NCBI GenBank assembly: GCA_016765685.1
Contig: JAESPR010000027.1
Location: forward strand, 1-46,004
Source of the DNA: Colwellia sp.
GTDB taxonomy: Bacteria; Pseudomonadota; Gammaproteobacteria; Enterobacterales; Alteromonadaceae
Reading direction: 5' to 3'
DNA: 46,004 nt
The notes under the pieces were generated by a model. That model was not told the origin of the DNA and searched no databases. It saw only the letters and a list, made by a program, of their open reading frames with translations. Below, in pieces: positions 839 through 41,592 of the stretch (position 1 is the first letter of the stretch; each line of letters opens with the position of its first letter). Made by a program: the position numbers and the translations under genes.

Positions 839-1015
839 TTAATATCACACAATATCAAAAAATAGAAATAAAAAAATTGATTTTACGTAATTATCTGGAT
901 GACGATTCCGAGATATCTCCATGGTAAATTGTACTCTTACCTTTCATCTTTACATTTTATTAAAAGTAAAGATATGGTATTCTTTACTAAAATGGATAAA
1001 GTAAAGGAAGTGGTT

Positions 1016-1234
1016 ATGAAAGTTAGTTCTAAAAGACAGATTACACTGCCAATAGATCAATGTGTTGTTGCTCATATTAATAAAGGTGATGAAGTTGAGA
1101 GCTTTGTCGATAGACAGGGTATTATTTCTATCGTTAAAAAATCAACGGGGGCAGCTAGTGGTATGTTAAGTGGCATAGCAATTAATGCTGATATCACTGA
1201 AGAAGAGTCATTACAAAGTTCTATAAGTTTATGA
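1016..1234 (+). CDS. AbrB/MazE-type antitoxin of a toxin-antitoxin pair
   Basis: A 72-residue protein beginning MKVSSKRQITLPID, the swapped-hairpin SpoVT/AbrB DNA-binding fold used by MazE- and VapB-type antitoxins. The C-terminal part is likely the disordered toxin-neutralising tail. I place the start at ATG 1016 because AAGGAAG (1004-1010) is well spaced before it and the family consensus starts here. An ATG at 899 in the same frame would add 39 unlikely residues. The stop overlaps the toxin start as ATGA (1231-1234), a typical coupled arrangement. Such antitoxins usually bind their own promoter as a dimer. The AT-rich stretch before it is the probable promoter region, but I see no clear operator. 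Confidence 0.8.
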   Translation: MKVSSKRQITLPIDQCVVAHINKGDEVESFVDRQGIISIVKKSTGAASGMLSGIAINADITEEESLQSSISL

Positions 1235-1665
1235 TTGCTGTAGATACTAACGTTTTACTTCGTTATTTAATCAAAGATGACCAAGTACAAGCAGAAAAAT
1301 CACAAAAGCTTATTAATGGTAGCCAAAAAGTATTGATCACCGATGTAGTGATCACCGAAACTATATGGGTCTTAACAGGAAAGCGCTATCAGCTACCTAA
1401 AGATAAAATTATTGATGTTATTCATGCCTTGTTCGCAGAGAAAAACATTCAGTTTGAAGATCCTCAGGCTGTTTGGTGTGCCTTAAAAGATTATGTTAAT
1501 GCACCATCAATAAAAGTGAAAGGTAAAACCAAGCAAGCCGATTTTTCTGATGCGTTAATTGTCAATAAAGCAAAGCGTTATGGTCAAGTAAACAATATAA
1601 AGGTGCATCCTATTTATACCTTTGATAAAGCCGCACAAGCAATAGAAGGAACTGCAGAGCCTTGA
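1231..1665 (+). CDS. PIN-domain ribonuclease toxin (VapC-like)
   Basis: A 144-residue single PIN domain. The acidic metal ligands expected of a PIN nuclease are visible: Asp5 in MIAVDTNVLLRYL, Glu43 in ITETIWVL, Asp104 and Asp107 in ADFSDALI, and Asp132 in YTFDKAA. Related VapC toxins are Mg-dependent RNases that cut tRNA or rRNA; the target here cannot be read from sequence. The gene starts inside the antitoxin stop codon, so the two are translated together. All catalytic residues and normal length are present, so the pair is probably functional although its surroundings are decayed. It is a candidate stabiliser of the accessory patch. Confidence 0.85.
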   Translation: MIAVDTNVLLRYLIKDDQVQAEKSQKLINGSQKVLITDVVITETIWVLTGKRYQLPKDKIIDVIHALFAEKNIQFEDPQAVWCALKDYVNAPSIKVKGKTKQADFSDALIVNKAKRYGQVNNIKVHPIYTFDKAAQAIEGTAEP

Positions 1666-23769: not shown

Positions 23770-26700
23770 TTATTCACTTATAGTAGTAACGGCTGCAAGT
23801 AGTGCCGTTGCTGGGTGTACGGCATTAAGTTCAGTTAAGCGCTTTACTTGCGAACGGCATGAAAAACCGGTGGCTAATATTTGCTCTTGCGCTAAGCCAA
23901 CCAATTTTGGTTGCCAGCTTAAGTCAAACAAACCTTTCGAGTTGGCTAAATTAGATTTTTCATGACCATAAGTACCCGCCATACCGCAGCAACCAACACT
24001 GACTTTGTCTAGCGCTAAACCAAAATGATTAAAAATGATCAGCCATTCATTTTCGCTATTCACCAAAGCAGTTTTTTCAGTACAATGAGCAAAGAGTTTA
24101 AACACTTTTTCATTATTAACGGTTGCTGCTTTAAAGTAATTATCACTTTTAATAAATGACATTAGCCACTCATGGGCTAATAACACGGTAAAATCACCGC
24201 GTTTTTCGCCTAAGGTTTTCACGTATTCATCACGATAACAAAGCACCATAGAGGCATCCAACCCTAACATCGGTATAGTTAATTTTGCTAACTGATTTAA
24301 AAAATCACTGGCTGATTTTGCTGTTTTAGCAAAACGGCTTAAAAAACCTTTCACATGTTGCGCTTTACCATTGGGTTTAAAGGGCAACAAAATAGGCTCT
24401 TTGCCTAATACCTTTATTAACGCCATCATGCTTTGCACGGTATTGGCATCATAAAATGAAGTGAATGGGTCTTGTACAATCAACACATAACCTTTGCACT
24501 GTTCCGCAGTTAAACCTTGCAATTTAGCTAAATCAAAACCTGAATAGCCGGTTTTTTTTATTTGTTTTTTCAAAGTAGGTACACTAAGCAATGGTGTATT
24601 GACATAACCGATAGTTTTTTCTGATAATTTATCATATGCCTTCAAACTGAGAATGCTATTGACTAGTTTTGGCGCTTTCGCCATTAATGGCGCTAAGATC
24701 TCAACGTTAGCAACAAGGTGATCTTTAAGTGGCCTAGGGTAGCGTGAATGATACAAATTAATAAAACGGCTTCTAAAGTCGGGCACATCTACTTTTATCG
24801 GACATTGGCTCGCACACGCTTTACACGCTAAACAACCCTGCATAGCTTCCATTACTTCATGAGAGAAATCAGCTTTGTTTTCTTCTTTTGTTAAGAAGGT
24901 AATTTTAAACTTTGAGATACTGCTATCCAACAATTTTTTCACCGACCAATTGTTAATATCTTGCTCAAGCGCTAATACATCAACACCTTGTTTTTCTAAT
25001 AATCGTAGCCATTCTCGCATCAAACCGGCTCGACCTTTAGGCGAATGGCGTCGATCAGAGGTGATTTTGCTCGACGGGCACATCGGGCTATTGGCATCAT
25101 AATTGAAACACAAACCGTTACCGTTACAATCCATTGCAGCAGTAAAAGACTCTTTTACTTGTACTGGAATTTGACGGTCATAAAAGCCACGTTTGGTATC
25201 ATCAACGCTAACTAATAACTCGGTTGAATTAATAGGTGTACATATTTTTCCGGGATTCATTTTATTCAAAGGGTCAAATACCGTCTTTATTTTTCTAAGC
25301 TCGGTAAATAACACCTCACCAAAAAATTCAGGCCCGTATTCTGAGCGGTAACCTCGTCCATGCTCACCCCACATTAAACCGCGATATTTAGCGGTAAGTT
25401 TGACTACTTTATCTGATAAGGTGCGTAATAGTTTTTCTTGTTCAGGATCACACATATCAAGTGCTGGACGAACATGTAACACCCCTGCGTCAACATGACC
25501 AAACATGCCATAATGTAAGTTATAACCATCAAGCAAAGCACGAAACTCAACAATAAAATCAGCTAAATTTTCCGGCGGTACTGCAGTATCTTCAGCAAAA
25601 GCTAACGGTTTAGGATTGCCCTTTTTTTCACCTGCAAAACCGGCGCCTAATAAACCAACTGCTTTTTTACGCATCGCATAAAGTTTATTAATACTGCTTA
25701 AATCTGAGGTGACTTGATAGCCAATGACGCCACTTTGCTCGTTGGCAATGGTTTCATTTAAGCCTTTAGTTAATACCGCTACTTGCTCAGCCAAGGCTTC
25801 AATGCTTTCACCATTAAATTCAACAATATTAATGCCGTCCATCACTTTATCTGGCACATCAGTAATTAAATCACTAACGCTATGCCAAACGGTATCTTGC
25901 TTGGCTAAATTTAATACTTTGCTGTCGATAGTTTCTACTGAGGTCGCTTTTGCTGCCACTAAAAAAGGCGAATGGCGCAAGGCAGAATCAAAACTGTCAT
26001 ATTTAATATTGATTAAAGTTTTAGCTGGACTAATTGGGGTAATGTTTAATTTGGCTGCGCAAACAAAAGCTAACGAGCCTTCAGAGCCGGTAATTATCCT
26101 TGATAAATCAAAAGTATCTAAATTGTGCTCACTATCGCCTTGTAGTACATTTTCTAAGTCATAACCGGTTAGAAAACGATTCAAGCGTGGAAATTTAGTT
26201 AGTATTAGCTCTCGGTTGTCTAAACAAGACGCTAACACTTGTGCGATAATGTTGCCATAGTTGGTATCTTCTTTCGCTAAACCTTGCGCTTGAGCAATGG
26301 TCATCGGCTCAGTATTTAATACCTCACCGTTAGCGAGTACCGAGGTCAGCGCTAAAACATGATTGGAAGTTTTACCATAAATCAATGAGCCCTGCCCTGA
26401 TGCATCAGTACTGACCATGCCGCCAATGGTAGCGCGATTACTAGTTGATAAGTCCGGCGCAAAGAAAAAACCGTGGGGCCGTAAAAAGTCATTTAATTGA
26501 TCTTTAATTACACCCGCTTCCACTTTAACCCATTTTTCTTCAACATTAATGGCTAAGACCTTATTCATGTACTTAGACAAATCAACAATAATACCTGGCG
26601 TTAAACTTTGGCCATTAGTTCCCGTACCACCACCACGAGCACTAAATTTAATCTCTTTAAAAGCCTCTTCACTTGAGGTTTGACTTAATAAAACAATGTC

Positions 26701-26886
26701 TTGCTGGGTACGCGGATGAAGCACCAATTGTGGCAACTGTTGATAAATACTGTTATCGGTGGCTACCGCTAAACGAGCGCTGTAGCTAGCATCAATATCG
26801 CCAGTAAAACCTTTAGCGTTTAGTGCGTTAGAGAAATTTTCAAAAATAGCAGGCAAGTGTGCTTGGTGATCAATACGGGGTAACAT
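23770..26886 (-). CDS. ydiJ: YdiJ-type FAD/4Fe-4S D-2-hydroxyglutarate dehydrogenase
   Basis: 1038 residues (E. coli YdiJ 1018), collinear with YdiJ. An N-terminal PCMH-type FAD-binding domain (about 40-280: FSARGGGTGTNGQSLTPGIIVDLS, TIGGMVSTDASGQGS, IITGSEGSLAFV) leads to the FAD-oxidase C domain (GHVDAGVLHVRP; LMWGEHGRGYRSEYGPEFFG). The C-terminal Fe-S half contains CLACKACASQCPIKVDVPDFRSRF and a cysteine-rich CCG module (VGCCGMAGTYGHEKSN). YdiJ of E. coli has been shown to oxidise D-2-hydroxyglutarate; the substrate here is inferred from that. Electrons probably go to quinone. No signal peptide. Single-gene unit. Confidence 0.85.
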   Translation of the reverse strand: MLPRIDHQAHLPAIFENFSNALNAKGFTGDIDASYSARLAVATDNSIYQQLPQLVLHPRTQQDIVLLSQTSSEEAFKEIKFSARGGGTGTNGQSLTPGIIVDLSKYMNKVLAINVEEKWVKVEAGVIKDQLNDFLRPHGFFFAPDLSTSNRATIGGMVSTDASGQGSLIYGKTSNHVLALTSVLANGEVLNTEPMTIAQAQGLAKEDTNYGNIIAQVLASCLDNRELILTKFPRLNRFLTGYDLENVLQGDSEHNLDTFDLSRIITGSEGSLAFVCAAKLNITPISPAKTLINIKYDSFDSALRHSPFLVAAKATSVETIDSKVLNLAKQDTVWHSVSDLITDVPDKVMDGINIVEFNGESIEALAEQVAVLTKGLNETIANEQSGVIGYQVTSDLSSINKLYAMRKKAVGLLGAGFAGEKKGNPKPLAFAEDTAVPPENLADFIVEFRALLDGYNLHYGMFGHVDAGVLHVRPALDMCDPEQEKLLRTLSDKVVKLTAKYRGLMWGEHGRGYRSEYGPEFFGEVLFTELRKIKTVFDPLNKMNPGKICTPINSTELLVSVDDTKRGFYDRQIPVQVKESFTAAMDCNGNGLCFNYDANSPMCPSSKITSDRRHSPKGRAGLMREWLRLLEKQGVDVLALEQDINNWSVKKLLDSSISKFKITFLTKEENKADFSHEVMEAMQGCLACKACASQCPIKVDVPDFRSRFINLYHSRYPRPLKDHLVANVEILAPLMAKAPKLVNSILSLKAYDKLSEKTIGYVNTPLLSVPTLKKQIKKTGYSGFDLAKLQGLTAEQCKGYVLIVQDPFTSFYDANTVQSMMALIKVLGKEPILLPFKPNGKAQHVKGFLSRFAKTAKSASDFLNQLAKLTIPMLGLDASMVLCYRDEYVKTLGEKRGDFTVLLAHEWLMSFIKSDNYFKAATVNNEKVFKLFAHCTEKTALVNSENEWLIIFNHFGLALDKVSVGCCGMAGTYGHEKSNLANSKGLFDLSWQPKLVGLAQEQILATGFSCRSQVKRLTELNAVHPATALLAAVTTISE

Positions 26887-28799: not shown

Positions 28800-31277
28800 T
28801 TAAGGTTTATTATCTAAAACCGCTTCATAAACAAGAGAAATAACACTGCCATATTTACCTGTTTCAAATTCTTTACCTTTAAATTGATAGTTTTTGTCAT
28901 CACCTTCAATTTCACTGTGACGAGCATTGGTTAATAAAATAATGGCTAAATCATGCTCAGGATCAATAACAGTAACAGTGCCCGTCCAACCGGTGTGTCC
29001 GAACGCGCTTGCACTTGCATAAGGGCCGAAGTGCCATTTTCTATCACCGTTATTAGCTCGACGCCAGCCTAAGCCATAGGTGCCATTGCCATCATCTGGT
29101 TTAATGAATTGGTCAATTACTTTACCTGAAAACATTTCCTTATCCCCATAGCCACCTCGATTTAATAGGGTTTGTGCTAATACTGCCAGTTCTTGTGCTG
29201 TAGAAAACAAACCCGCATGACCGGCTATACCCGCAAACGAATGATAGGCTTTTTCATCGTGCACCTCTCCTTGCAACACGTAAGTACGTACATTATCAAA
29301 AATAACTCGATTGCCACGAGTAGTGCCGTGTATTTCGGTAGCGGCAAATTGATTTGTCCTAAAACCTTTTTGCAATGGATTAAATACCGTATTATTTAAT
29401 CCTAACGGGTGATAAATATCATATTCAACATACTTATCGAGCGACATGTCGCTAATGTTTTCAATAATCATACCTAACAACATGTAATCAGTATCACTGT
29501 ACATGCGTTTGGTTGATCGCCCTACGGCAAAAGGGATTTTAGTTAAAATTAGTTCTTTAGTACGCTCAACATTTTGTGAGAAAAAAGCAGCGCCTAAATG
29601 ATTGTCTCGAGTAAAAAACTTAACCTGTGGTGAGTAACCTGCATTATGGGTAAGAATATCTTTTACCGTGCGCAAATCACGCCCGGCACCACGATAAGTG
29701 GGTAAATAATGATTAATTGGCAAGCTTACATCTAATTTCCCCTCACTCACTAATTTCATCAGGGCAAAATTAGTGGCAAACATTTTGGTGTTAGAAGCAA
29801 GATCAAAAATGGTTTCTGTGGTCATTTTTACCGGAGTAGTCAGCAGTTCTCCGCCATCAGCAAATTTTCTAGCATAACCATAAGCACTATTTTTAATTAT
29901 TTTTCCGTCTTTAACCACCACCAAAACAGCGCCGGGGAAGCCGTTTTCAACGTCACCTTTAATTAAGGCATCAACCTTGGTGAACAACTTTTTATGCTTT
30001 TGGCTGTTATCTTCAAGGGTAGGATAAGGAATAGTAACGCTTAAGTTTGCCCCCAATGGTAATATATTTTCAATTTTAAAAGTATTATCTCCATTTTTGG
30101 TGCGTTTTCGTAAACTGTAGCGATAACTATTATAAGCTTGCAATGGTTGGGCAATATTGAGCTTCTCACCATTAACATAAATATCTGCAGATTCTGCATC
30201 TTGATTATCAATGATTATTTCACCTCGTCCTTGGTAACTTTTAAAAGTAGCCCGATCGTTAACTAGTTTGCGATCACTACGCGTTTTTTGAGGGTAAACA
30301 TCATCTATTTGACCTTTTTTACTAAGTACCATTGGCGCTTGCTTTAGTGGTAATAATTCATTTCGATAACGAACTAGCAGTGTTTTTGTTACTACGGGTC
30401 TATACTTTTCCAACAGTGCAAATAATGTTGCTATGGTTTGCTCGTCTGCTCTATCGGTAACTTTCCATGGCATAAAGTGCGTTTGAAAAGCATGCAAAAC
30501 TGCTTGTGTTTGGCTATCTAACTCACCCGTTTCTTTAAGATCATAGCCATAATAATTAAGTGCTCGCTGCACTAAGCCAATATTTGGCAGCTGGCCATTA
30601 AATAATTGCCAATATTTAAGTACCGTATTTTGTTCATACCAAGCGCCAATACCTGCCTGATAGAGTTGATACCAAGGAAATTGCGGCCCGGGATCGCTTT
30701 TTCGTAACGGAGCTATATCGCTATGCCCAATAATATTTGTTGGTGATATACCAGGGTTACTCTTTAAAATGTCTTTAGACAGTTTGATCAATAGTGCTAT
30801 TTGTTTGGGATCATAATCAGGAAAAAAGCACATTTGACTTGAACTGATGTCTTGATCCGCCAATAACTTAGTTTTTTGCTGTGGCAACTCCCAACACCGT
30901 GGCACATTAACAAGTTCAATGCCGATAGACTGATCGTTTATCGCCTTTCGTCCTTGCCAATAACTACTGCCGGCATGCCAAGCACGTTCATTTTCATTAA
31001 CCAGTTTTAATACTTTAAGCTCATCATCAAGGTAGCTTTTGTCGTGACTTTCAGGCAATAAATAATGCGCGCTAACACCACTTTTATCGACTAATTTACG
31101 CACTGAGCCCTGATAATTTTCCGCAGTATAGTGCATCACTAAAAACTTGATGCGATGACCATAGTTTTTTGAATACATTTTTTCAACAGGCAAGTTACCT
31201 GACGTGCAACTGGTTAACATTAAGAAAACAGTTAAAAAAAGTATTGCTTTTAGTGTATTTGTCAGCGATTGGCTCAT
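28800..31277 (-). CDS. Lipoprotein fusion: AmiD-type amidase, peptidoglycan-binding domain and PBP4B/AmiE-type serine hydrolase
   Basis: 825 residues. Lipobox LMLTSC puts lipid on Cys24. An Amidase_2 (N-acetylmuramoyl-L-alanine amidase) domain follows (about 40-200) with zinc ligands His49, His185 and Asp195 and Glu121 in IGIEL. A PG_binding_1-like helical domain spans about 228-290 (VQRALNYYGYDLKETGELDSQTQAVLHAFQ). A beta-rich segment (about 350-420) precedes the class C beta-lactamase-like domain (about 430-820) with SxxK Ser495-Lys498 (SNTK), YSD 593-595 and HTG. The C-terminal half matches YfeW/PBP4B and, as I recall, B. subtilis AmiE (YbbE), which removes peptides from MurNAc. Two candidate peptide-stripping active sites thus share one chain. 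It lies 81 bp downstream of the D-lactate dehydrogenase gene. Confidence 0.85.
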   Translation of the reverse strand: MSQSLTNTLKAILFLTVFLMLTSCTSGNLPVEKMYSKNYGHRIKFLVMHYTAENYQGSVRKLVDKSGVSAHYLLPESHDKSYLDDELKVLKLVNENERAWHAGSSYWQGRKAINDQSIGIELVNVPRCWELPQQKTKLLADQDISSSQMCFFPDYDPKQIALLIKLSKDILKSNPGISPTNIIGHSDIAPLRKSDPGPQFPWYQLYQAGIGAWYEQNTVLKYWQLFNGQLPNIGLVQRALNYYGYDLKETGELDSQTQAVLHAFQTHFMPWKVTDRADEQTIATLFALLEKYRPVVTKTLLVRYRNELLPLKQAPMVLSKKGQIDDVYPQKTRSDRKLVNDRATFKSYQGRGEIIIDNQDAESADIYVNGEKLNIAQPLQAYNSYRYSLRKRTKNGDNTFKIENILPLGANLSVTIPYPTLEDNSQKHKKLFTKVDALIKGDVENGFPGAVLVVVKDGKIIKNSAYGYARKFADGGELLTTPVKMTTETIFDLASNTKMFATNFALMKLVSEGKLDVSLPINHYLPTYRGAGRDLRTVKDILTHNAGYSPQVKFFTRDNHLGAAFFSQNVERTKELILTKIPFAVGRSTKRMYSDTDYMLLGMIIENISDMSLDKYVEYDIYHPLGLNNTVFNPLQKGFRTNQFAATEIHGTTRGNRVIFDNVRTYVLQGEVHDEKAYHSFAGIAGHAGLFSTAQELAVLAQTLLNRGGYGDKEMFSGKVIDQFIKPDDGNGTYGLGWRRANNGDRKWHFGPYASASAFGHTGWTGTVTVIDPEHDLAIILLTNARHSEIEGDDKNYQFKGKEFETGKYGSVISLVYEAVLDNKP

Positions 31278-31358
31278 ATCATTTTCATTTTAAATTAATC
31301 GTCAATTAATAGTTTACACAGTTACTTATAAGAAGTTGTGCAAATAAATCGCAATTTT

Positions 31359-34268
31359 TTATTTCAACTTTTTATGGCTACATTGATCGAGTAAATATAA
31401 GACTGATTGATAAGAAATACCTGAATGCTCTGATAAGCCAATTTCACAGGTTCGACTATTACTTAAACCCCGATGGCAATTATTTGGTACTTGCGCTTTT
31501 AACGGCGCTAAGGCGGCTTTATTTAATTCCGGGTGATAAAAACCTTTGTCACCCGCAAAACCGCAACAATAAATATGGTTAGGGATGATAATATTGTCAC
31601 TGCAAGCGTAAGCAATAGCTTGTAAATATTGACCTTCATCCATTTTTTTGCTGCTGCAAGTTGTATGGAGCATAAAGGTTTCATTGGCTTTTTTTATGGT
31701 TAACTTATTTAACACGTATTTAGCAATAAACTGAGTCACTTCTAACATGTTAACTTTTTCATTAATATCAATCGTGCTTTGTCCAATATTAGGTTGTAAA
31801 TCATTGCTTGTTAACGTTAGCGCACAAGGACTAGCATCGGTTATTACTGGCCACTGACCTTGTTTTGAATATTGCTCAATAGTAGTGAACAACTCTTGCT
31901 TTTTTGCCTTAGCGGTATCATTCAAACCTTTAGATAACCACGGCATTCCACAACAAAGCTTATTCGCTTGCGAAGGAATAATAACTTCAATATCAGCCTT
32001 ATTTAACAGTGAAATAACGACGTCTTGAATAGCCCGTTGATCTTGTGCTTTATTATCGGCGGCAAAAATTCGATTACCACAGGCGGGAATATAAACCACT
32101 TTATTAATAAACTTTTTACTGTAATGAGTCACCGCTATTGGTTTAGCGCCTGCTGGCCAAGTTTGACGCCATTTAGGAGTTAAATTACCTGAGACTTTAT
32201 TAAGTGCTGAAAAAGTATGCTGCATCACTTTATCACCAACAACTTTGTTCACTAATTGCATAGCGTTCAAACTAAATCTAGCAATGCGACTAAGGTTAGC
32301 GAAGTTTTTAGCTAAATGTTGACTTATACGTCCATCGGTATTTGCCTTTGCTCGTAAGTTTTTAATAAATAATCCAGTATCAATACCTACCGGACATTGC
32401 TGACCACATAAGCCGGTTGCCGCACAACTATCAACACCAAAATATTGGTAATCTTGTTCTAGGTTATCTAATTCTTGTTGTTGCTCTTTAGTAATAGTGC
32501 CCTCTTGACGTTTTTGCTGTAACAAGGAGATTTGTCGCCACACCGCAATGCGTTGTCTTGGCGAAAGCGTTAATGTTAATGATGGACAAACTGACTCACA
32601 AAAACCACATTCAATGCACTTATCAATGATTGAACTGGAAGATCTATCATCGGTTTTTGTCATTATTTTTAAATGTTTAAGATGGGCTTTCTGGTCTTCA
32701 TTGATGATCACCCCAGGATTTAAAATACCTTGTGGGTCAAACAATTTTTTCAGCTTTTTCATCACCAAATAAAGTTCACTACCCCACTCTAGTTCAACAA
32801 AAGGCGCTATGTTTCGCCCAGTACCGTGCTCGGCTTTTAATGAACCTTGATAATCAACAGCAATCAGGTGTGCAACCGCGACCATAAAAGCATGATAACG
32901 GTCTATTTCAATTTGAGTATCAAAGCCTTGAGTAAACACAAAATGCAAGTTACCCGCAAGTGCATGACCAAAAATAATAGCTTCATCGTAACCAAATTGG
33001 CTGAACAACAAGTGTAATTGCGTAACCGCTTGGGCTAGTTGAGCTACAGGTACCGCCACATCTTCAATCACCACAGTGGTGCCACTAGCGCGCACTGCAC
33101 CTACGGCAGGAAACATACCTTTGCGCATTTTCCACAAATTAGCGATAACGTGCTCATTCGTGCTAAAAGCCTGCTGTGCAATAAGTTTATCTTCAAGTTT
33201 AACGATATGGCAATTTAACTGTTGCTCGAGCTGAGACAATTGCTGTTGACTGTTTGCGCTAAATTCAATTAACAAAGCGGTACTGCCTTTAGGTAAAATA
33301 TTGGGTATGCTAACTAGCGCCTTAATTTGCTCAACGACCGAGTTAAGCGCTCTAACATCCATTATTTCTACCGCATCTACGCTCTCATTTGCTAATTCAC
33401 CCACTAATTTACACGCTGTTTGCATGGTATCAAAAATAAAAAAACCGGCCATTTTAAATGGCAAAATGGCTACGGTGTTATAGGTAATATCACTAATAAA
33501 AGCTAAGGTTCCCTCAGAGCCAATCATTAAATGACTAATAATATCAATGGGGTTTTGATAATCCACTAACGCGTTAATACCGTAACCCGTGGTATTTTTT
33601 AATCGATATTTATGCTGAATTTTTTTAACTAAACTAGGCTGTGTTTTAATATCGGCAACAATTTTCATTAACGAGGCAACAAAGTCACCATGATTTGACA
33701 AGAATTGCTGACATGAGTTTTTATCACCCGTATTTAATTGACTGCCATCAGCAAAAACCAAATTGATACTCGCCAACGTATGATAACTGTTGTTTTTAAC
33801 CCCGCAACACATACCTGAGGCATTATTCGCCGCGATGCCGCCAATTTTACAGCTATTAATGGATGCTGGATCAGGACCAATTTTGTGTGCATAAGGGGCT
33901 AACGCGTGATTAGCATGCCCGCCAATCACACCCGACTGCAAAGTGATTTGCTTGCCATGATTATGAATGGTTATATCATTCCAGTGAGGTGAAAGAATAA
34001 TAAGCACTGAATCTGTGATCGCTTGACCAGACAAACTGGTGCCCGCAGCACGAAAAGTTACCGGTATTTTACATTGTGATGCTAACCTCAATATTTGCAC
34101 TAACTCTTGTTCGTTTTCAACGCTAATAACCATTTTAGGTACTAAGCGATAAAAACTAGCATCCCCTCCATAGGCAAAACGCTGAATATAGCGCGTAATT
34201 ATATTTTCTGGTGCCAGAATATGGTGAATACTATGGCTAAATTGAGTAATGTCAGTAACAGTATTCAT
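31359..34268 (-). CDS. FAD- and Fe-S-containing D-lactate dehydrogenase (Dld-II type)
   Basis: 969 residues. FAD-binding PCMH domain (about 40-260: TFRAAGTSLSGQAITDSVLIIL, GGIAANNASGMCCG, IGSEGTLAFISDI), FAD-oxidase C domain (IFGHALAGNLHFVF, LKAEHGTGRNIAPFVELEWG), two 4Fe-4S motifs (CIECGFCESVCPS and CAATGLCGQQCPVG) and paired CCG modules (KLCCGMPW, YCCGFAGDKGF). The layout matches the quinone-linked D-lactate dehydrogenase Dld-II of Shewanella rather than YdiJ. Position next to MurR, NamZ and MurQ is telling, because MurQ releases D-lactate from MurNAc-6-phosphate. Divergent from murR across 199 bp and probably cotranscribed with the downstream amidase fusion. Confidence 0.87.
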   Translation of the reverse strand: MNTVTDITQFSHSIHHILAPENIITRYIQRFAYGGDASFYRLVPKMVISVENEQELVQILRLASQCKIPVTFRAAGTSLSGQAITDSVLIILSPHWNDITIHNHGKQITLQSGVIGGHANHALAPYAHKIGPDPASINSCKIGGIAANNASGMCCGVKNNSYHTLASINLVFADGSQLNTGDKNSCQQFLSNHGDFVASLMKIVADIKTQPSLVKKIQHKYRLKNTTGYGINALVDYQNPIDIISHLMIGSEGTLAFISDITYNTVAILPFKMAGFFIFDTMQTACKLVGELANESVDAVEIMDVRALNSVVEQIKALVSIPNILPKGSTALLIEFSANSQQQLSQLEQQLNCHIVKLEDKLIAQQAFSTNEHVIANLWKMRKGMFPAVGAVRASGTTVVIEDVAVPVAQLAQAVTQLHLLFSQFGYDEAIIFGHALAGNLHFVFTQGFDTQIEIDRYHAFMVAVAHLIAVDYQGSLKAEHGTGRNIAPFVELEWGSELYLVMKKLKKLFDPQGILNPGVIINEDQKAHLKHLKIMTKTDDRSSSSIIDKCIECGFCESVCPSLTLTLSPRQRIAVWRQISLLQQKRQEGTITKEQQQELDNLEQDYQYFGVDSCAATGLCGQQCPVGIDTGLFIKNLRAKANTDGRISQHLAKNFANLSRIARFSLNAMQLVNKVVGDKVMQHTFSALNKVSGNLTPKWRQTWPAGAKPIAVTHYSKKFINKVVYIPACGNRIFAADNKAQDQRAIQDVVISLLNKADIEVIIPSQANKLCCGMPWLSKGLNDTAKAKKQELFTTIEQYSKQGQWPVITDASPCALTLTSNDLQPNIGQSTIDINEKVNMLEVTQFIAKYVLNKLTIKKANETFMLHTTCSSKKMDEGQYLQAIAYACSDNIIIPNHIYCCGFAGDKGFYHPELNKAALAPLKAQVPNNCHRGLSNSRTCEIGLSEHSGISYQSVLYLLDQCSHKKLK

Positions 34269-34467
34269 AAAGTGGTTAACATCCTAGGTTATTCCTTGGT
34301 TCAAAGCACAGTAAATTTTTTATTACAGTATCACTATTGATTGATAAATATTTAAACAAAAATTTCATGGTAAATATGGGTTAATACTAGATTAAGCTAA
34401 TAAATTAATGATATAAACTAGCGAATAAAAATAAATTATTAATATCAACTTAATAGCACAGGTTTTT

Positions 34468-35337
34468 ATGTCTACATTTACTAAAATTAAAGCAATCAAA
34501 GATTCCCTGTCACACAGTGAAGGTAAGTTAGCTGATTTTATTCTTAATTCATCCAACGCTATTCGAGAACTGTCTTCTCAAGAATTAGCCAATGTCGCAG
34601 GAGTAAGCCAATCTAGCGTGGTTAAATTTACGCAAAAACTAGGTTACAAAGGTTACCCTACTTTTAAACTTGCCGTTATGGATGCCCTTAATAGTGAGGC
34701 TATAAATAACGAACAAAATAATGACCACTTACATGGCAAAATTACGTTAACTGATTCTTTAGAACAATTAGCTACTAAGTTACTGAGTAGTAAGATTTCT
34801 GTACTGAATGAAACTAAAAGTCTTAACGAAGTAAAATCCATTGAAGGTGCGGTAAATTTAATAAAATCAGCTAAGCGCATTCTTATTTGCGGCCTAGGTG
34901 GTTCAGCTCTGGTCGGTTATGACTTCTCGTATAAGTTACAAAAAATTGGTTATAGCGCCATCGCTAATTCAGACGCTCATGCACAACTTGCTTTAGCGGC
35001 AACTTTTACTAAAGACGACCTTGTTTTTGCTATCAGCGAGTCTGGTCAAACGTTTGAAGTTATCGAAATTTGCCAGCAAGCCAAACAATGTGGTGCTGGT
35101 ATTATTTCATTAACCAAATACGGTAAAACTCAAGTATCAAGTTATGCTGAGATAAAACTTTACTCCATTGCTGAAGCTGATTCATTACGCTTGTCGTCTA
35201 TTCTTGCCCGCACCGCGCAAGAATATATTATAGATATTTTATTTATTGCTATCACCCAGTCGTCGAGACAAAGTAGAAAACTGCTTGAAAAAACTAATAC
35301 CGTTATTGCAAACTTTAGAAATTCAACCGAGCGATAA
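34468..35337 (+). CDS. murR: MurR/RpiR-family transcriptional regulator
   Basis: 289 residues. An N-terminal RpiR helix-turn-helix (about 1-77: LADFILNSSNAIRELSSQELANVAGVSQSSVVKFTQKLGYKGYPTFK) is followed by a SIS sugar-phosphate-binding domain (about 125-260: ILICGLGGSALVGYDFSYKLQKIG, FAISESGQTFEVIEICQQAK). E. coli MurR is a repressor released by MurNAc-6-phosphate. Location between the D-lactate dehydrogenase/amidase pair and namZ-murQ supports that ligand here. The call to MurR rather than another RpiR member rests on context. It probably represses the divergent dehydrogenase operon and perhaps murQ-namZ. Confidence 0.8.
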   Translation: MSTFTKIKAIKDSLSHSEGKLADFILNSSNAIRELSSQELANVAGVSQSSVVKFTQKLGYKGYPTFKLAVMDALNSEAINNEQNNDHLHGKITLTDSLEQLATKLLSSKISVLNETKSLNEVKSIEGAVNLIKSAKRILICGLGGSALVGYDFSYKLQKIGYSAIANSDAHAQLALAATFTKDDLVFAISESGQTFEVIEICQQAKQCGAGIISLTKYGKTQVSSYAEIKLYSIAEADSLRLSSILARTAQEYIIDILFIAITQSSRQSRKLLEKTNTVIANFRNSTER

Positions 35338-35382
35338 ATCAACCACCACATTTTTTAATAGCGATTTCTTAATAGATATTTC

Positions 35383-36624
35383 TTAATAGAGTAAGTAGGG
35401 TTTTCTCCTTGTTTTAAATTTTATTAAATTTTGCTGCCAACTTAGCTTTATTTGTTGCGCTGATTTACCGGCAATAATTGCTTTTCTTAACTTGTCTGTG
35501 CCGCTGAGTTTGTCCATAAAACTAGCACGAGTGAAAAATACTTCATTTTGCGCGATAAAGGCGTTGTGCCAATTTATAATAAAATGCAAATCTAAGCCAC
35601 GAACCTTACTGTTACGTAAATCTTGTCCTAATAAGTTTTCATTCATCAACTTAGGTTTGAATGCAGCGCCGGGAGTTGATACTGGCATAAAAGCAAACTC
35701 ACCTAACGAAATTTTATCATGACCGATCACCTGAAAAGGAAAACTAGTGCCGCGGCCAATGCTAATGGGAGTTGCTTCAAAAAAACCCAGTGATGGATAT
35801 AAACTAATAGCGGTATCATTAGGTAAATTAGGGCTTGGTTTTACCGGCAATGAATAAAATAGAGTACGTTGATAGTTTTTCATGCTGATCACGGTCAACT
35901 TCAATGGTTTTTCGATTTCAAGCCACTTTTCACCGGTAAACATCAAAGCCAATTCAGCAACTGTCATACCATGAAGCAAAGGTATTTCGTGCAAGCCAAC
36001 AAAAGAAGTGAATTCAGGCTCTAATATTGGCCCATCAACAAACCCACCATTAGGGTTTGGCCTATCAAAAACAATAAAAGTCACACCCGCATCAGCTGAG
36101 GCCTCCATCATATAATGCATTGAACTGATATAGGTATAAAAGCGCACACCGACATCTTGAATATCAAAAATAATCACATCAAGTTTTGCCATAATATCAG
36201 CGGATGGTTTACGGTTTTTTCCATAAATAGAAACCAGAGGCAAGCCCGTTTTCTTATCTATGCTTGAGTTAAATTTTTCACCGGCATCATGCAAGCCACG
36301 AAAGCCATGCTCTGGTGCGAAAATAGCCTGAACATTAATGTTATTCGCAATAAGCACGTCAACTAAGTGCTTGTTACCCACCATTGAAGTTTGATTAACC
36401 ACCAAACCGACCCGTTTATTTTGCAACAAAGGCAAATAATGCGGTGCTTGCTCAGCCGCAACGATTATTCTATTGGTCGATAAAGGTTTGGGGATTACTG
36501 GTACAGGGTGCTGTCCAGCTGACGGTATTTTTTCGCCCAGTGTCGGTGTGCAAGAAAGCAGAGGTAAGCTCACTAACATAAGTACCACACTGCTCGTTAA
36601 TAATTTTTTTAAACATGAAACCAT
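35383..36624 (-). CDS. namZ: NamZ-type exo-beta-N-acetylmuramidase (DUF1343), lipoprotein
   Basis: 413 residues. The lipoprotein signal ends LVSLPLLSC with lipidated Cys25, so it is predicted to be envelope-anchored. The DUF1343 domain fills about 60-410: LLQNKRVGLVVNQTSMV, NINVQAIFAPEHGFRGLHDAGEKF, GLPLVSIYGKNRKPS, IIFDIQDVGVRFYTYISSMHYMMEA, FIVFDRPNPNGG and SPNLPNDTAISLYPSLGFFEATPISIGRGT. B. subtilis NamZ (YbbC) cleaves non-reducing-end MurNAc from peptide-free glycan. It lies 13 bp after murQ on the same strand. The murQ-namZ pairing mirrors the B. subtilis murQ-murR-murP-amiE-nagZ-namZ cluster. Confidence 0.9.
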   Translation of the reverse strand: MVSCLKKLLTSSVVLMLVSLPLLSCTPTLGEKIPSAGQHPVPVIPKPLSTNRIIVAAEQAPHYLPLLQNKRVGLVVNQTSMVGNKHLVDVLIANNINVQAIFAPEHGFRGLHDAGEKFNSSIDKKTGLPLVSIYGKNRKPSADIMAKLDVIIFDIQDVGVRFYTYISSMHYMMEASADAGVTFIVFDRPNPNGGFVDGPILEPEFTSFVGLHEIPLLHGMTVAELALMFTGEKWLEIEKPLKLTVISMKNYQRTLFYSLPVKPSPNLPNDTAISLYPSLGFFEATPISIGRGTSFPFQVIGHDKISLGEFAFMPVSTPGAAFKPKLMNENLLGQDLRNSKVRGLDLHFIINWHNAFIAQNEVFFTRASFMDKLSGTDKLRKAIIAGKSAQQIKLSWQQNLIKFKTRRKPYLLY

Positions 36625-36637
36625 AATAAAGTCTTTT

Positions 36638-37579
36638 TTAATTTTCAGCTTGCTGAACCGCTTGTCGTAAAAACCCCTTGTTCTTCACTAAACAAACTCT
36701 AGCTTGCTCAATATTTAAACCCGTTAATATCATTAAAGTCGCGTGTTTGGCATTGTTTTTGGCATGTTCTAAAGCTTGTTTCGCACAATCGTAGTTACAA
36801 TCGGTAGCTTGCATTACAATTCTCACAGCACGAGCATGTAGTTTTTCATTGCTAGCACTGACATCTATCATTAAGTTTTTATAACTTTTACCGATGCGGA
36901 TCATGCTAGCAGTACTGAGCATGTTCAAAATTAATTTCTGCGCAGTGCCAGATTTCATTCGAGTAGAGCCCGTTAACACTTCTGCGCCAACAACCGCGCA
37001 AAGATTTATATCATTAGCTTGTTTAAATGTTTCATTATAACTACAGCTAATACCAATCACCGTTGCACCAATAGATTTTCCGTACTTCATTGCTGAAATT
37101 ACATAAGGAGTACGGCCACTAGCAGCAATACCAACTAAGACATCGTTCGCTGATAACTCAGTGTTTTTAAGATCATCAATAGCAAATAATTCGTTATCTT
37201 CTGCACCTTCTACTGCTTTATAAATAGCCTTATCACCTCCGGCAATAATACCGATGACTTGTTTATCACCAACACTAAACGTTGGCGGGCACTCAACCGC
37301 ATCTAAAATGCCTAAACGACCACTAGTACCGGCACCGATGTAAATTAACCGTCCTCCCTTTGCAAAAGCGGCAACAATTTTATCAACCGCTTGAGCAATT
37401 TCTGGAATGATCCCTTTTACTACACCCGCTACTTTTTGATCCTCACTATTAATTTTCTCTAAAACGCCTTGCGCGTCGAGTAGATCTATATCTAAGGTTT
37501 CTGTATTTTGATCTTCCGTAGAAATTTTATCTAACTCATCAACGAGTTGGAACTGTTTATTCATCAACGATGTCTTCAT
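36638..37579 (-). CDS. murQ: N-acetylmuramic acid 6-phosphate etherase
   Basis: 313 residues (E. coli 298). MurQ cleaves the lactyl ether of MurNAc-6-phosphate to GlcNAc-6-phosphate and D-lactate in the cytosol. The SIS-fold signatures are GGRLIYIGAGTSGRLGILDA then VECPPTFSV, IIAGGDKAIYKAVEGAEDNE (catalytic Glu region), GIAASGRTPYVISAM, and LTGSTRMKSGTAQKLILNMLST. The C-terminal helical hairpin is complete. First gene of murQ-namZ; the promoter region is shared with divergent alr, where a 12-bp sequence is directly repeated (37651-37676). Confidence 0.96.
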   Translation of the reverse strand: MKTSLMNKQFQLVDELDKISTEDQNTETLDIDLLDAQGVLEKINSEDQKVAGVVKGIIPEIAQAVDKIVAAFAKGGRLIYIGAGTSGRLGILDAVECPPTFSVGDKQVIGIIAGGDKAIYKAVEGAEDNELFAIDDLKNTELSANDVLVGIAASGRTPYVISAMKYGKSIGATVIGISCSYNETFKQANDINLCAVVGAEVLTGSTRMKSGTAQKLILNMLSTASMIRIGKSYKNLMIDVSASNEKLHARAVRIVMQATDCNYDCAKQALEHAKNNAKHATLMILTGLNIEQARVCLVKNKGFLRQAVQQAEN

Positions 37580-37650
37580 AGTTAACCTTTAAATTTGCTA
37601 TTACATCTGAATAATAGCCTAATGTGTACTAGTCCTAAAAATGCAATTTC

Positions 37651-37676
37651 AAACACACAGTTCTAAACACACAGTT
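37651..37676. repeat. 12-bp direct repeat in the murQ-alr intergenic region (candidate operator)
   Basis: AAACACACAGTT occurs at 37651-37662 and again at 37665-37676, a 14-bp period. ACACAGTTA from the second copy recurs at 31316-31324, in front of the amidase fusion gene, and a weaker GCACAGTAAA occurs at 34306-34315, in front of the D-lactate dehydrogenase. This could be a MurR-family site, but the match is short and unsupported by experiment. Confidence 0.3.
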
Positions 37677-37806
37677 AAGAATATATTATTCCAAAAGTCA
37701 TGTAAACAAGGAATTCAAGTAAGTTAGACTTCAAAAAACTCTATCACTAAAGAAACATGGTACACTGGAAAGAAGTGTTAGGCTTCTCGCCAGTAAATTA
37801 TCGATA

Positions 37807-38889
37807 ATGAATTATATCTCAAGAAAAACCCTCGCCATTATCAACCTACCCGCTTTAATAAGTAATTATCATTGTCTCGCTAATTTAGCACCGCAAAGTG
37901 AAACCATCGCAGTTATTAAAGCCAATGCTTATGGCCATGGCGCAATAACAGTAGCAAAACATTTAGATAATATGGTGCCCGCTTTAGCCGTTGCTTTTAT
38001 TGATGAAGCGCTAGTATTACGTGAAGCGGGCATTACTTCTCCTATTTTAATTTTAGAGGGGCCATTGTCTGAACAGGACTTTGTGATCGCATCAAAGCAT
38101 AATTTTTGGTTAATGCTCCATAACGGGGCGCAAATTGATTGGTTAATCAAACAAACACCCATTTATAGTGGCAAACTCTGGCTTAAAGTGGATACGGGTA
38201 TGAACCGTTTAGGTTTAATGCCCAGTCAAGTAAGCAATATTTTAGCTACATTGCCAAGTCAGCAATTAAAAAAGTTAGTACTTTGTACACACTTTTCTAA
38301 TGCTGAAGAATTAGATAACCCAAAAACCTTGTTACAAATAAAACGACTAACACAAGTTAATCAAATACATGGCTGCAAAAAAAGTTTAGCTAACTCGGCA
38401 GGCATAATTAACTGGCGCGAAAGCCATGGTGATTATAATCGCCTTGGCATTGCTTTATACGGCGCAACACCGTTATTAGCTAAAAAATTGCCGATTAAAT
38501 TAATACCCGTGATGACCTTACAATCAACGGTTATTAGTATCAGAAAGTTAAATATTGGGGAGTCGGTTGGATATGGTGAAACTTGGCAAGCAAAACGCCC
38601 TTCAATTATAGCGACTATTGCTATTGGTTATGCCGATGGTTACCCAAGAAGCGCCAAAGTTGGCACACCAGTGTGGTTTAAAAGTCAGCTGGCTCCATTA
38701 GTTGGGCGTGTTTCTATGGATATGATCACCGTTGACATTACCGATATTGACAAGGTTGAACTAGGTGATTTAGTCGAATTATGGGGAGAAAGTTTGGCCA
38801 TTGAAACGGTGGCAGAGTATAGCAATACTATTAATTATGAGTTACTAACTCGAGTTTCAGCACGAGTTCCTAAAAAGTATACCTTGTAA
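37807..38889 (+). CDS. alr: Alanine racemase
   Basis: 360 residues (E. coli Alr 359). Fold-type III PLP enzyme interconverting L- and D-alanine. The cofactor lysine is Lys38 in AVIKANAYGHG. LKVDTGMNRLGL, NSAGIINW, DYNRLGIALYG, IGYADGYPRSA (catalytic Tyr) and VGRVSMDMITVDIT are all in place. It provides D-Ala for peptidoglycan or, in salvage, converts D-Ala from stem peptides to L-Ala. Position divergent from murQ supports a cell-wall recycling link, but the gene may simply be the housekeeping racemase. Convergent with queE. Confidence 0.95.
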   Translation: MNYISRKTLAIINLPALISNYHCLANLAPQSETIAVIKANAYGHGAITVAKHLDNMVPALAVAFIDEALVLREAGITSPILILEGPLSEQDFVIASKHNFWLMLHNGAQIDWLIKQTPIYSGKLWLKVDTGMNRLGLMPSQVSNILATLPSQQLKKLVLCTHFSNAEELDNPKTLLQIKRLTQVNQIHGCKKSLANSAGIINWRESHGDYNRLGIALYGATPLLAKKLPIKLIPVMTLQSTVISIRKLNIGESVGYGETWQAKRPSIIATIAIGYADGYPRSAKVGTPVWFKSQLAPLVGRVSMDMITVDITDIDKVELGDLVELWGESLAIETVAEYSNTINYELLTRVSARVPKKYTL

Positions 38890-41420: not shown

Positions 41421-41468
41421 ATCTTGAATAATACCTTGAATAATACCTTGAATAATATATTGAATGTT
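41421..41468. repeat. 12-bp tandem repeat, about four copies
   Basis: Units at 41421, 41433, 41445 and 41457 are variants of ACCTTGAATAAT; the middle two are identical and the outer two differ at a few bases. The array lies in the gap between the channel gene and the small hypothetical gene. Slipped-strand expansion of a short AT-rich unit is the simplest explanation. Confidence 0.7.
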
Positions 41469-41592
41469 AATCTCTTTTAGTACTATAGAATATTATCTTC
41501 CTTTGATTTTCTTTTAAGACAAAATTTATATAACCCTTATTTCACGGTAGTCTAGACTTAATAAGTGTCCACAAAGATATTAAGGATATTTT

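Follow-up and report, generated by a model that had tools for sequence, protein, structure and literature searches.

The murQ-namZ locus of a Colwellia genome is likely a reduced peptidoglycan-salvage module that is controlled by MurR and supplied with N-acetylmuramic acid 6-phosphate (MurNAc-6P) by AmpG-AnmK recycling. The locus lies on contig JAESPR010000027.1 of the metagenome-assembled genome (MAG) of Colwellia sp. GCA_016765685.1, here G000, which is 77% complete. The whole 46,004-nucleotide stretch analyzed is called the window, and other G and L numbers are our labels for genomes and stretches of relatives. Six open reading frames (ORFs) are intact between positions 28800 and 38889, and each was assigned to a family with Pfam and NCBIfam models at curated cut-offs and by comparison with solved structures. 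A sequence-only reading had described them as a complete-looking MurNAc salvage route that implied growth on external murein. Its gene families were borne out, with Pfam matches above curated cut-offs in all six ORFs, and its MurNAc-6P theme was supported. We conclude that the enzyme logic of that reading is sound and that the locus is neither complete nor showing external murein use.

We propose the following pathway. A lipid-anchored fusion protein would act on murein glycans, its AmiD-type half removing stem peptides and its PBP4B-type half cleaving a further bond, and NamZ would release MurNAc from the peptide-free glycan ends. Cytoplasmic MurQ would convert MurNAc-6P, most likely from ordinary AmpG-AnmK recycling, to N-acetylglucosamine 6-phosphate (GlcNAc-6P) and D-lactate, and the FAD/Fe-S enzyme of the locus probably would oxidize the D-lactate. 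MurR, probably a repressor, would act on murQ-namZ by way of a palindrome upstream of murQ. The products of MurQ are described in the accessible part of PMC5061867. The parts all belong to known families, and the novelty lies in their combination and in the reduced state.

Genes of the locus

The genes appear to be arranged in several transcription units. On the minus strand, murQ and namZ are separated by 13 bp and likely form one operon, and the gene for the FAD/Fe-S dehydrogenase is followed, after a gap of 81 bp, by that for the amidase fusion. On the plus strand, murR is divergent from the dehydrogenase gene and convergent with namZ, and alr is divergent from murQ. No importer, MurNAc kinase, or NagZ is encoded at the locus. 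MurQ passed TIGR00274 (392 versus a cut-off of 302 bits), and its best solved relatives are HI0754 and MurQ structures. NamZ scored over the cut-offs for PF07075 (260 bits) and PF20732 (92 bits), and E105 and H106 of its PEHG motif were invariant in a seven-row alignment. NamZ also has a lipobox-like LLSC (Cys25), with the lipoprotein status of the window's proteins judged by eye; of 81 NamZ proteins, 46 fit a crude lipobox pattern. The regulator has HTH_6 and SIS domains and scored below the cut-offs of the MurR-type models PRK15482 (177 versus 408 bits) and PRK11557 (232 versus 355 bits). Alr passed TIGR00492 (341 versus 168 bits), and the order of genes around alr is conserved in the Colwellia clade; any functional link of Alr to the pathway is conjectural.

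The earlier names of the remaining two proteins need correction. What had been called a D-lactate dehydrogenase does belong to the FAD/Fe-S (GlcD/YdiJ) superfamily, and it fell below the cut-off of every NCBIfam equivalog model listed, such that D-lactate is its presumed substrate. Another FAD/Fe-S member of this superfamily, a YdiJ-type D-2-hydroxyglutarate dehydrogenase (1589 versus a cut-off of 1350 bits), is encoded near the locus at window positions 23770-26886. What had been called an amidase or AmiE-like lipoprotein is indeed an amidase, but one fused to a second enzyme. The fusion, 825 residues in length, comprises an AmiD/AmpDh-type amidase (residues about 38-200), PG_binding_1 (231-285), a linker, and a PBP4B-type serine hydrolase domain (417-820), the last of which passed the PBP4B equivalog model NF002968 (481 versus a cut-off of 385 bits). 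The best solved relatives of the amidase part are AmpDh3 (E = 1.8e-54 over residues 38-292), AmpDh2, and AmiD (E = 1.3e-44 over 41-292), and similarity over both the amidase and PG-binding parts together with conserved site residues places it with AmiD/AmpDh2/AmpDh3. An alignment of 14 rows, made from the window's protein and 13 of 17 listed long homologs, one of the 13 cut at its end, showed invariant C24 (in a lipobox-like LTSC), H49, E121, H185, D195, S495, K498, Y593, D595, and H761-T762-G763. We take these to include the metal-site and SxxK/YxD/HTG residues, and those expected for both putative active sites are kept in all 14 rows. The fusion is not universal: in the 12 reduced Pseudoalteromonas loci, the protein is 546-554 residues long in ten, split into two pieces in L030, and 830 residues long in L059. 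An AlphaFold model of the fusion had a mean pLDDT of 60.1 and was set aside.

Table 1. Features of the window's MurNAc-6P locus, in order of position
Feature	Positions	Strand	Domains, models, or motif
Lipoprotein-like amidase-PBP4B fusion	28800..31277	-	Amidase_2, PG_binding_1, Beta-lactamase (Pfam)
FAD/Fe-S dehydrogenase, GlcD/YdiJ superfamily	31359..34268	-	FAD_binding_4, FAD-oxidase_C, Fer4
MurR/RpiR-family regulator	34468..35337	+	HTH_6, SIS
NamZ-family exo-beta-N-acetylmuramidase	35383..36624	-	NamZ_N, NamZ_C
MurQ, MurNAc 6-phosphate etherase	36638..37579	-	SIS-type domains, TIGR00274
Predicted MurR operator, TTAAGAATATATTATTCCAAA	37675..37695		motif about TGGAATANNNTATTCCA
Alanine racemase (Alr)	37807..38889	+	Ala_racemase_N, Ala_racemase_C

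Importer, kinase, and the source of MurNAc-6P

MurQ is a regular neighbor of NamZ. A scan of genome contigs for NamZ gave the best 80 of 124 relatives, ten of the 80 from Bacteroidota, and the 70 other loci plus the window yielded a well-flanked set of 50 in which namZ has 8 kb or more of sequence on each side. In this set, MurQ and the kinase were counted by BLAST. MurQ was near namZ in 46 of these 50 gammaproteobacterial loci, window included, an association that exceeds chance and supports co-conservation in Alteromonadales. An SSF symporter was present in 38 of the loci and a BadF-type kinase in 33; none of the 50 had the kinase without the symporter, and five had the symporter without the kinase. 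MurR was found in 34, the amidase/PBP4B family in 30 (counting L064, L069, and L071, where the ORF is just 185 residues long), GH3 in 29, the dehydrogenase in 16 from several genera, NlpC/P60 in 15, an epimerase in 12, and Alr in 11. That MurQ accompanied the dehydrogenase in all 16 loci says little alone, because MurQ is in 46 of 50. The fuller Alteromonadales clusters hold the same core plus a sodium symporter and a PF01869 kinase, in the order symporter, kinase, MurQ. Two Thalassotalea have the BadF-type kinase and MurQ fused in one ORF of about 620 residues (L014:8107-9975 and L040:8026-9891). The Colwellia clade, by comparison of 35 stretches from the genus, has the order uvrB, queC/queE, alr, murQ-namZ, with murR, the dehydrogenase, and the fusion variably present, and no symporter or kinase was found beside the alr-murQ-namZ loci of that clade.

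Neither did the rest of the assembly supply the missing steps. A search of G000 (77% complete) found no phosphotransferase system (PTS) EIIC and no strong match to a MurT-like symporter or a MurNAc-type kinase. The kinase and symporter profiles reached 107 and 38 bits in G000, and at least 307 and at least 889 bits in the five carriers among 16 genomes. The kinase profile matched a single G000 protein, a NagK-type enzyme encoded next to nagA, and this nagA-nagK pair covers the use of GlcNAc-6P. Thus, the locus cannot be called complete, and growth on external murein is unsupported for this organism. Because the symporter and MurNAc-type kinase were not found, MurNAc-6P would come from AmpG-AnmK recycling instead, and MurQ probably is fed by that route. 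AnmK was present in every one of the 18 same-genus relatives searched for it. AmpG was likewise present in all 15 relatives searched for it, a set not confined to the genus. In G021, the nearest genus genome by NamZ score, anmK shares a 10-kb stretch with tyrS and the genes for an M23 peptidase and a GH3 enzyme, as seen in one stretch of L166. When this stretch, tyrS included, was compared with G000, a DNA-level search matched only a short dispersed repeat. Because tyrS is expected in nearly every genome and was also unmatched, the absence of the anmK stretch points to an assembly gap, although a search at the DNA level is not final. The dispersed repeat, of about 55 bases, lies near tyrS (L166:1408-1466) and has 20 listed matches in G000.

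The same reduced state is common in the genus. NamZ was found in 37 of 39 genus genomes; the 39 include the window's own MAG, and 35 of the 39 are of good quality. The BadF-type kinase (E<=1e-60) was found in nine, all with NamZ, leaving 28 of the 37 NamZ-bearing genomes without a dedicated kinase at that threshold. A MurR homolog (E<=1e-60) was present in seven of the 39, the window's own included, and the dehydrogenase family (E<=1e-100) was present in 31, in 10 of which it is beside namZ by coordinates. A quick, midpoint-rooted NamZ tree was made of 102 rows; for 57 of these, the stretch examined, in some cases a short one, has no symporter. One group of the tree (SH-aLRT of 92) holds 31 symporter-less rows from Colwellia and one Litorilituus, the window among them, and a second symporter-less group holds 12 rows from Pseudoalteromonas. 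The symporter label needs 7 changes on this tree, versus a mean of 33.6 in shuffles. The simplest reading, which is not proof, is that the window and the loci grouped with it, which lack both symporter and kinase, arose by loss.

A predicted operator upstream of murQ

MurR may control murQ-namZ through a palindrome in the alr-murQ gap. The seed palindrome was derived from a set of 383 upstream regions that included the window's; it lies upstream of the symporter gene in Pseudoalteromonas and is matched exactly in seven Pseudoalteromonas loci. A weight matrix was made from 16 training sites outside the window's clade, chosen by seed likeness in intergenic places and not solely beside pathway genes, with the window, L001-L011, and L013 held out. 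The site upstream of murQ had the top score of the whole window, 20.2 versus 13.5 for the next, and 2 of 300 Markov-simulated windows reached that score anywhere. Among 32 alr-murQ gaps, the four with murR in the locus scored 15.2-20.2, each the best of its locus, and the 28 without murR scored 12.8 or less. One of the four, L048, is outside the held-out set, but its site was not a training site; of the 28, four are marked repeats, and L011 and L148 share one identical site. The pattern suggests controlled rather than constant use.

Other sites count against so simple an assignment. A palindrome scoring 18.6 lies between uvrB and queC in L003, a stretch without murR, and the window's own second-best site is in the kch/uvrB gap. 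Moreover, L005 (the same as L165) lacks murR and has its best site, 12.8, before murQ, and G051, with murR at another locus, shows no site at L145, its locus of the window type. Between murR and the dehydrogenase gene of the window there is only a weak site, 7.1. Given L003, G051/L145, and the weak site, we restrict the claim to murQ-namZ alone, for which the pattern of sites makes a MurR operator upstream of murQ probable. No strong operator match was found at the dehydrogenase-amidase unit of the window, so the evidence does not extend co-regulation to all five genes. We note that AT-rich palindromes like the MurR word occur in the convergent kch/uvrB gap of the window (41446-41504) and likewise in several murR-less relatives. 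At window positions 899-1665, two small ORFs overlap by 4 bases, the second with a PIN domain, and may be a toxin-antitoxin pair; the first (899-1234) had no Pfam match and no AbrB match, and its resemblance to an AbrB-type antitoxin is by eye only.

Alternative explanations and related systems

Several observations weigh against a recycling-fed module. The MAG is 77% complete, so a symporter and kinase may sit in the unassembled part, and three Colwellia of the same clade hold both genes at a separate locus. AnmK and AmpG were themselves not found in G000, and the feed is argued from relatives. To our knowledge, AnmK is not known to phosphorylate MurNAc, so the fate of NamZ-released MurNAc is unexplained. 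Finally, the preference for loss over gain rests on a quick NamZ tree with weak deep branches and a midpoint root. An alternative is that the organism grows on MurNAc or murein from outside, its symporter and kinase being encoded away from this locus in the quarter of the genome that is unassembled, much as some relatives have them elsewhere. Genomes G004, G006, and G009 carry a window-type alr/murQ-namZ-amidase locus plus an epimerase-symporter-kinase unit on another contig. Pseudoalteromonas prydzensis DSM 14232 (L054), which we take to be the strain ACAM 620 of a published study, has the full cluster. Two transporter mutants in that study grew like the wild type on MurNAc among other sugars, growth itself being outside the accessible passages (PMC9537276). 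External growth nonetheless seems unlikely here, as the kinase is in only 9 of 39 genus genomes (9 of 35 of good quality), and in G001, G002, and G008, which the NamZ tree places near the window, the kinase matches are only weak, at 108-120 bits, and the symporter matches score 39-168 bits.

Alternatively, the locus might recycle only the cell's own murein, with NamZ and the fusion as turnover hydrolases and alr and the dehydrogenase as accidental neighbors. The presence of AnmK and AmpG in all relatives searched for each is consistent with recycling alone, as are the kept order of alr with queE, queC, and uvrB and a dehydrogenase family that, though in 31 of 39 genus genomes, adjoins namZ in just 10 of these. 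However, 16 of the 50 well-flanked loci, from several genera, have the dehydrogenase near namZ, and the murR-operator pattern suggests controlled use, such that we find recycling alone rather doubtful. We likewise consider it improbable that Colwellia without the symporter and kinase supply MurQ through some other, unrecognized importer and kinase, even though the 28 NamZ-bearing genus genomes without a dedicated kinase would be explained. The candidate importer is an NhaC-type permease. Of the 50 well-flanked loci, 16 have this permease near namZ; it is also encoded downstream of anmK in L097 (3284-4150) and L099 (2-946), and it follows the PBP4B-type gene in 11 of the 12 Pseudoalteromonas loci of the reduced kind. 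The L097 permease shares 65% identity over 289 residues with the permease beside the amidase fusion in L046 (19288-20664), and our guess is that the cargo is a murein fragment or lactate. AnmK, however, can supply MurNAc-6P without such genes, and no sugar kinase or sugar importer was seen among ten flanking ORFs taken from four of the 35 stretches of the genus, one of these ORFs having a urea-transporter domain.

We favor the reduced module fed by AmpG-AnmK recycling. We speculate further, and with somewhat less than even confidence, that marine Alteromonadales have an undescribed peptidoglycan-utilization regulon marked by a MurR palindrome of about TTGGAATANNNTATTCCAA. Its members would be an outer-membrane barrel, GH3, NlpC/P60, an L-Ala-D/L-Glu epimerase-like enzyme, a murTK-type symporter and kinase, MurQ, NamZ, the AmiD-PBP4B fusion, and a lactate dehydrogenase. 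Most Colwellia would have shed the import half and kept murQ-namZ, and MurNAc released by NamZ would either enter by an unknown importer and kinase, the NhaC-type permease being the candidate importer, or become a shared good. If the reduced-module reading is right, murQ and namZ together do not imply a capacity to eat murein, the import and kinase step comes and goes within one genus while the core stays, and the fuller sister clusters would be a peptidoglycan-utilization locus of common marine bacteria.

Known systems resemble the locus in part. NamZ and the amidase fusion are outside the classical AmpG-AnmK-MurQ route, which is the likely MurNAc-6P source here, with AnmK and AmpG in relatives and neither found in the MAG. 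We take the PBP4B gene of E. coli to be yfeW and the ybbC gene of B. subtilis to be namZ, and AmiE presumably has a beta-lactamase-like fold. The GlcNAc1A "ong" cluster of Pseudoalteromonas, which likewise combines a MurR/RpiR regulator with an SSS transporter, was considered and rejected: it encodes the enzymes OngA-D and KdgK, and "etherase" appears nowhere in the accessible text (PMC9537276). Among the titles and abstract beginnings found, no paper concerned this Alteromonadales cluster, most subscription journals being outside the search. As far as the accessible part of the source describes it, E. coli has murQ, a MurR-type regulator, murP, and a PBP4B-family gene together (PMC5061867). 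The window likewise has MurQ, a MurR-type regulator, and a PBP4B-family domain, but unlike E. coli it lacks the MurP PTS importer and adds NamZ, an amidase domain fused to PBP4B, and the FAD/Fe-S dehydrogenase. In the same part of that source, the B. subtilis cluster is murQ-murR-murP-amiE-nagZ-ybbC (PMC5061867). MurQ and a MurR-type regulator are clustered at the window locus too, and the B. subtilis cluster also has an AmiE gene and ybbC; the window, however, has neither MurP nor NagZ and differs in its several transcription units, amidase fusion, and dehydrogenase. The Tannerella forsythia murTKQ system pairs MurT, of the sodium symporter superfamily, with MurK, of PF01869, according to the accessible part of PMC5790795. 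Its order of SSF symporter, PF01869 kinase, and MurQ is the same in the fuller Alteromonadales loci, whereas the window has MurQ alone of the three. Ultimately, the B. subtilis parallel drawn by the sequence-only reading gives way to closer ones, E. coli murR/murQ-murP-PBP4B for the window and T. forsythia murTKQ for its fuller sister loci.

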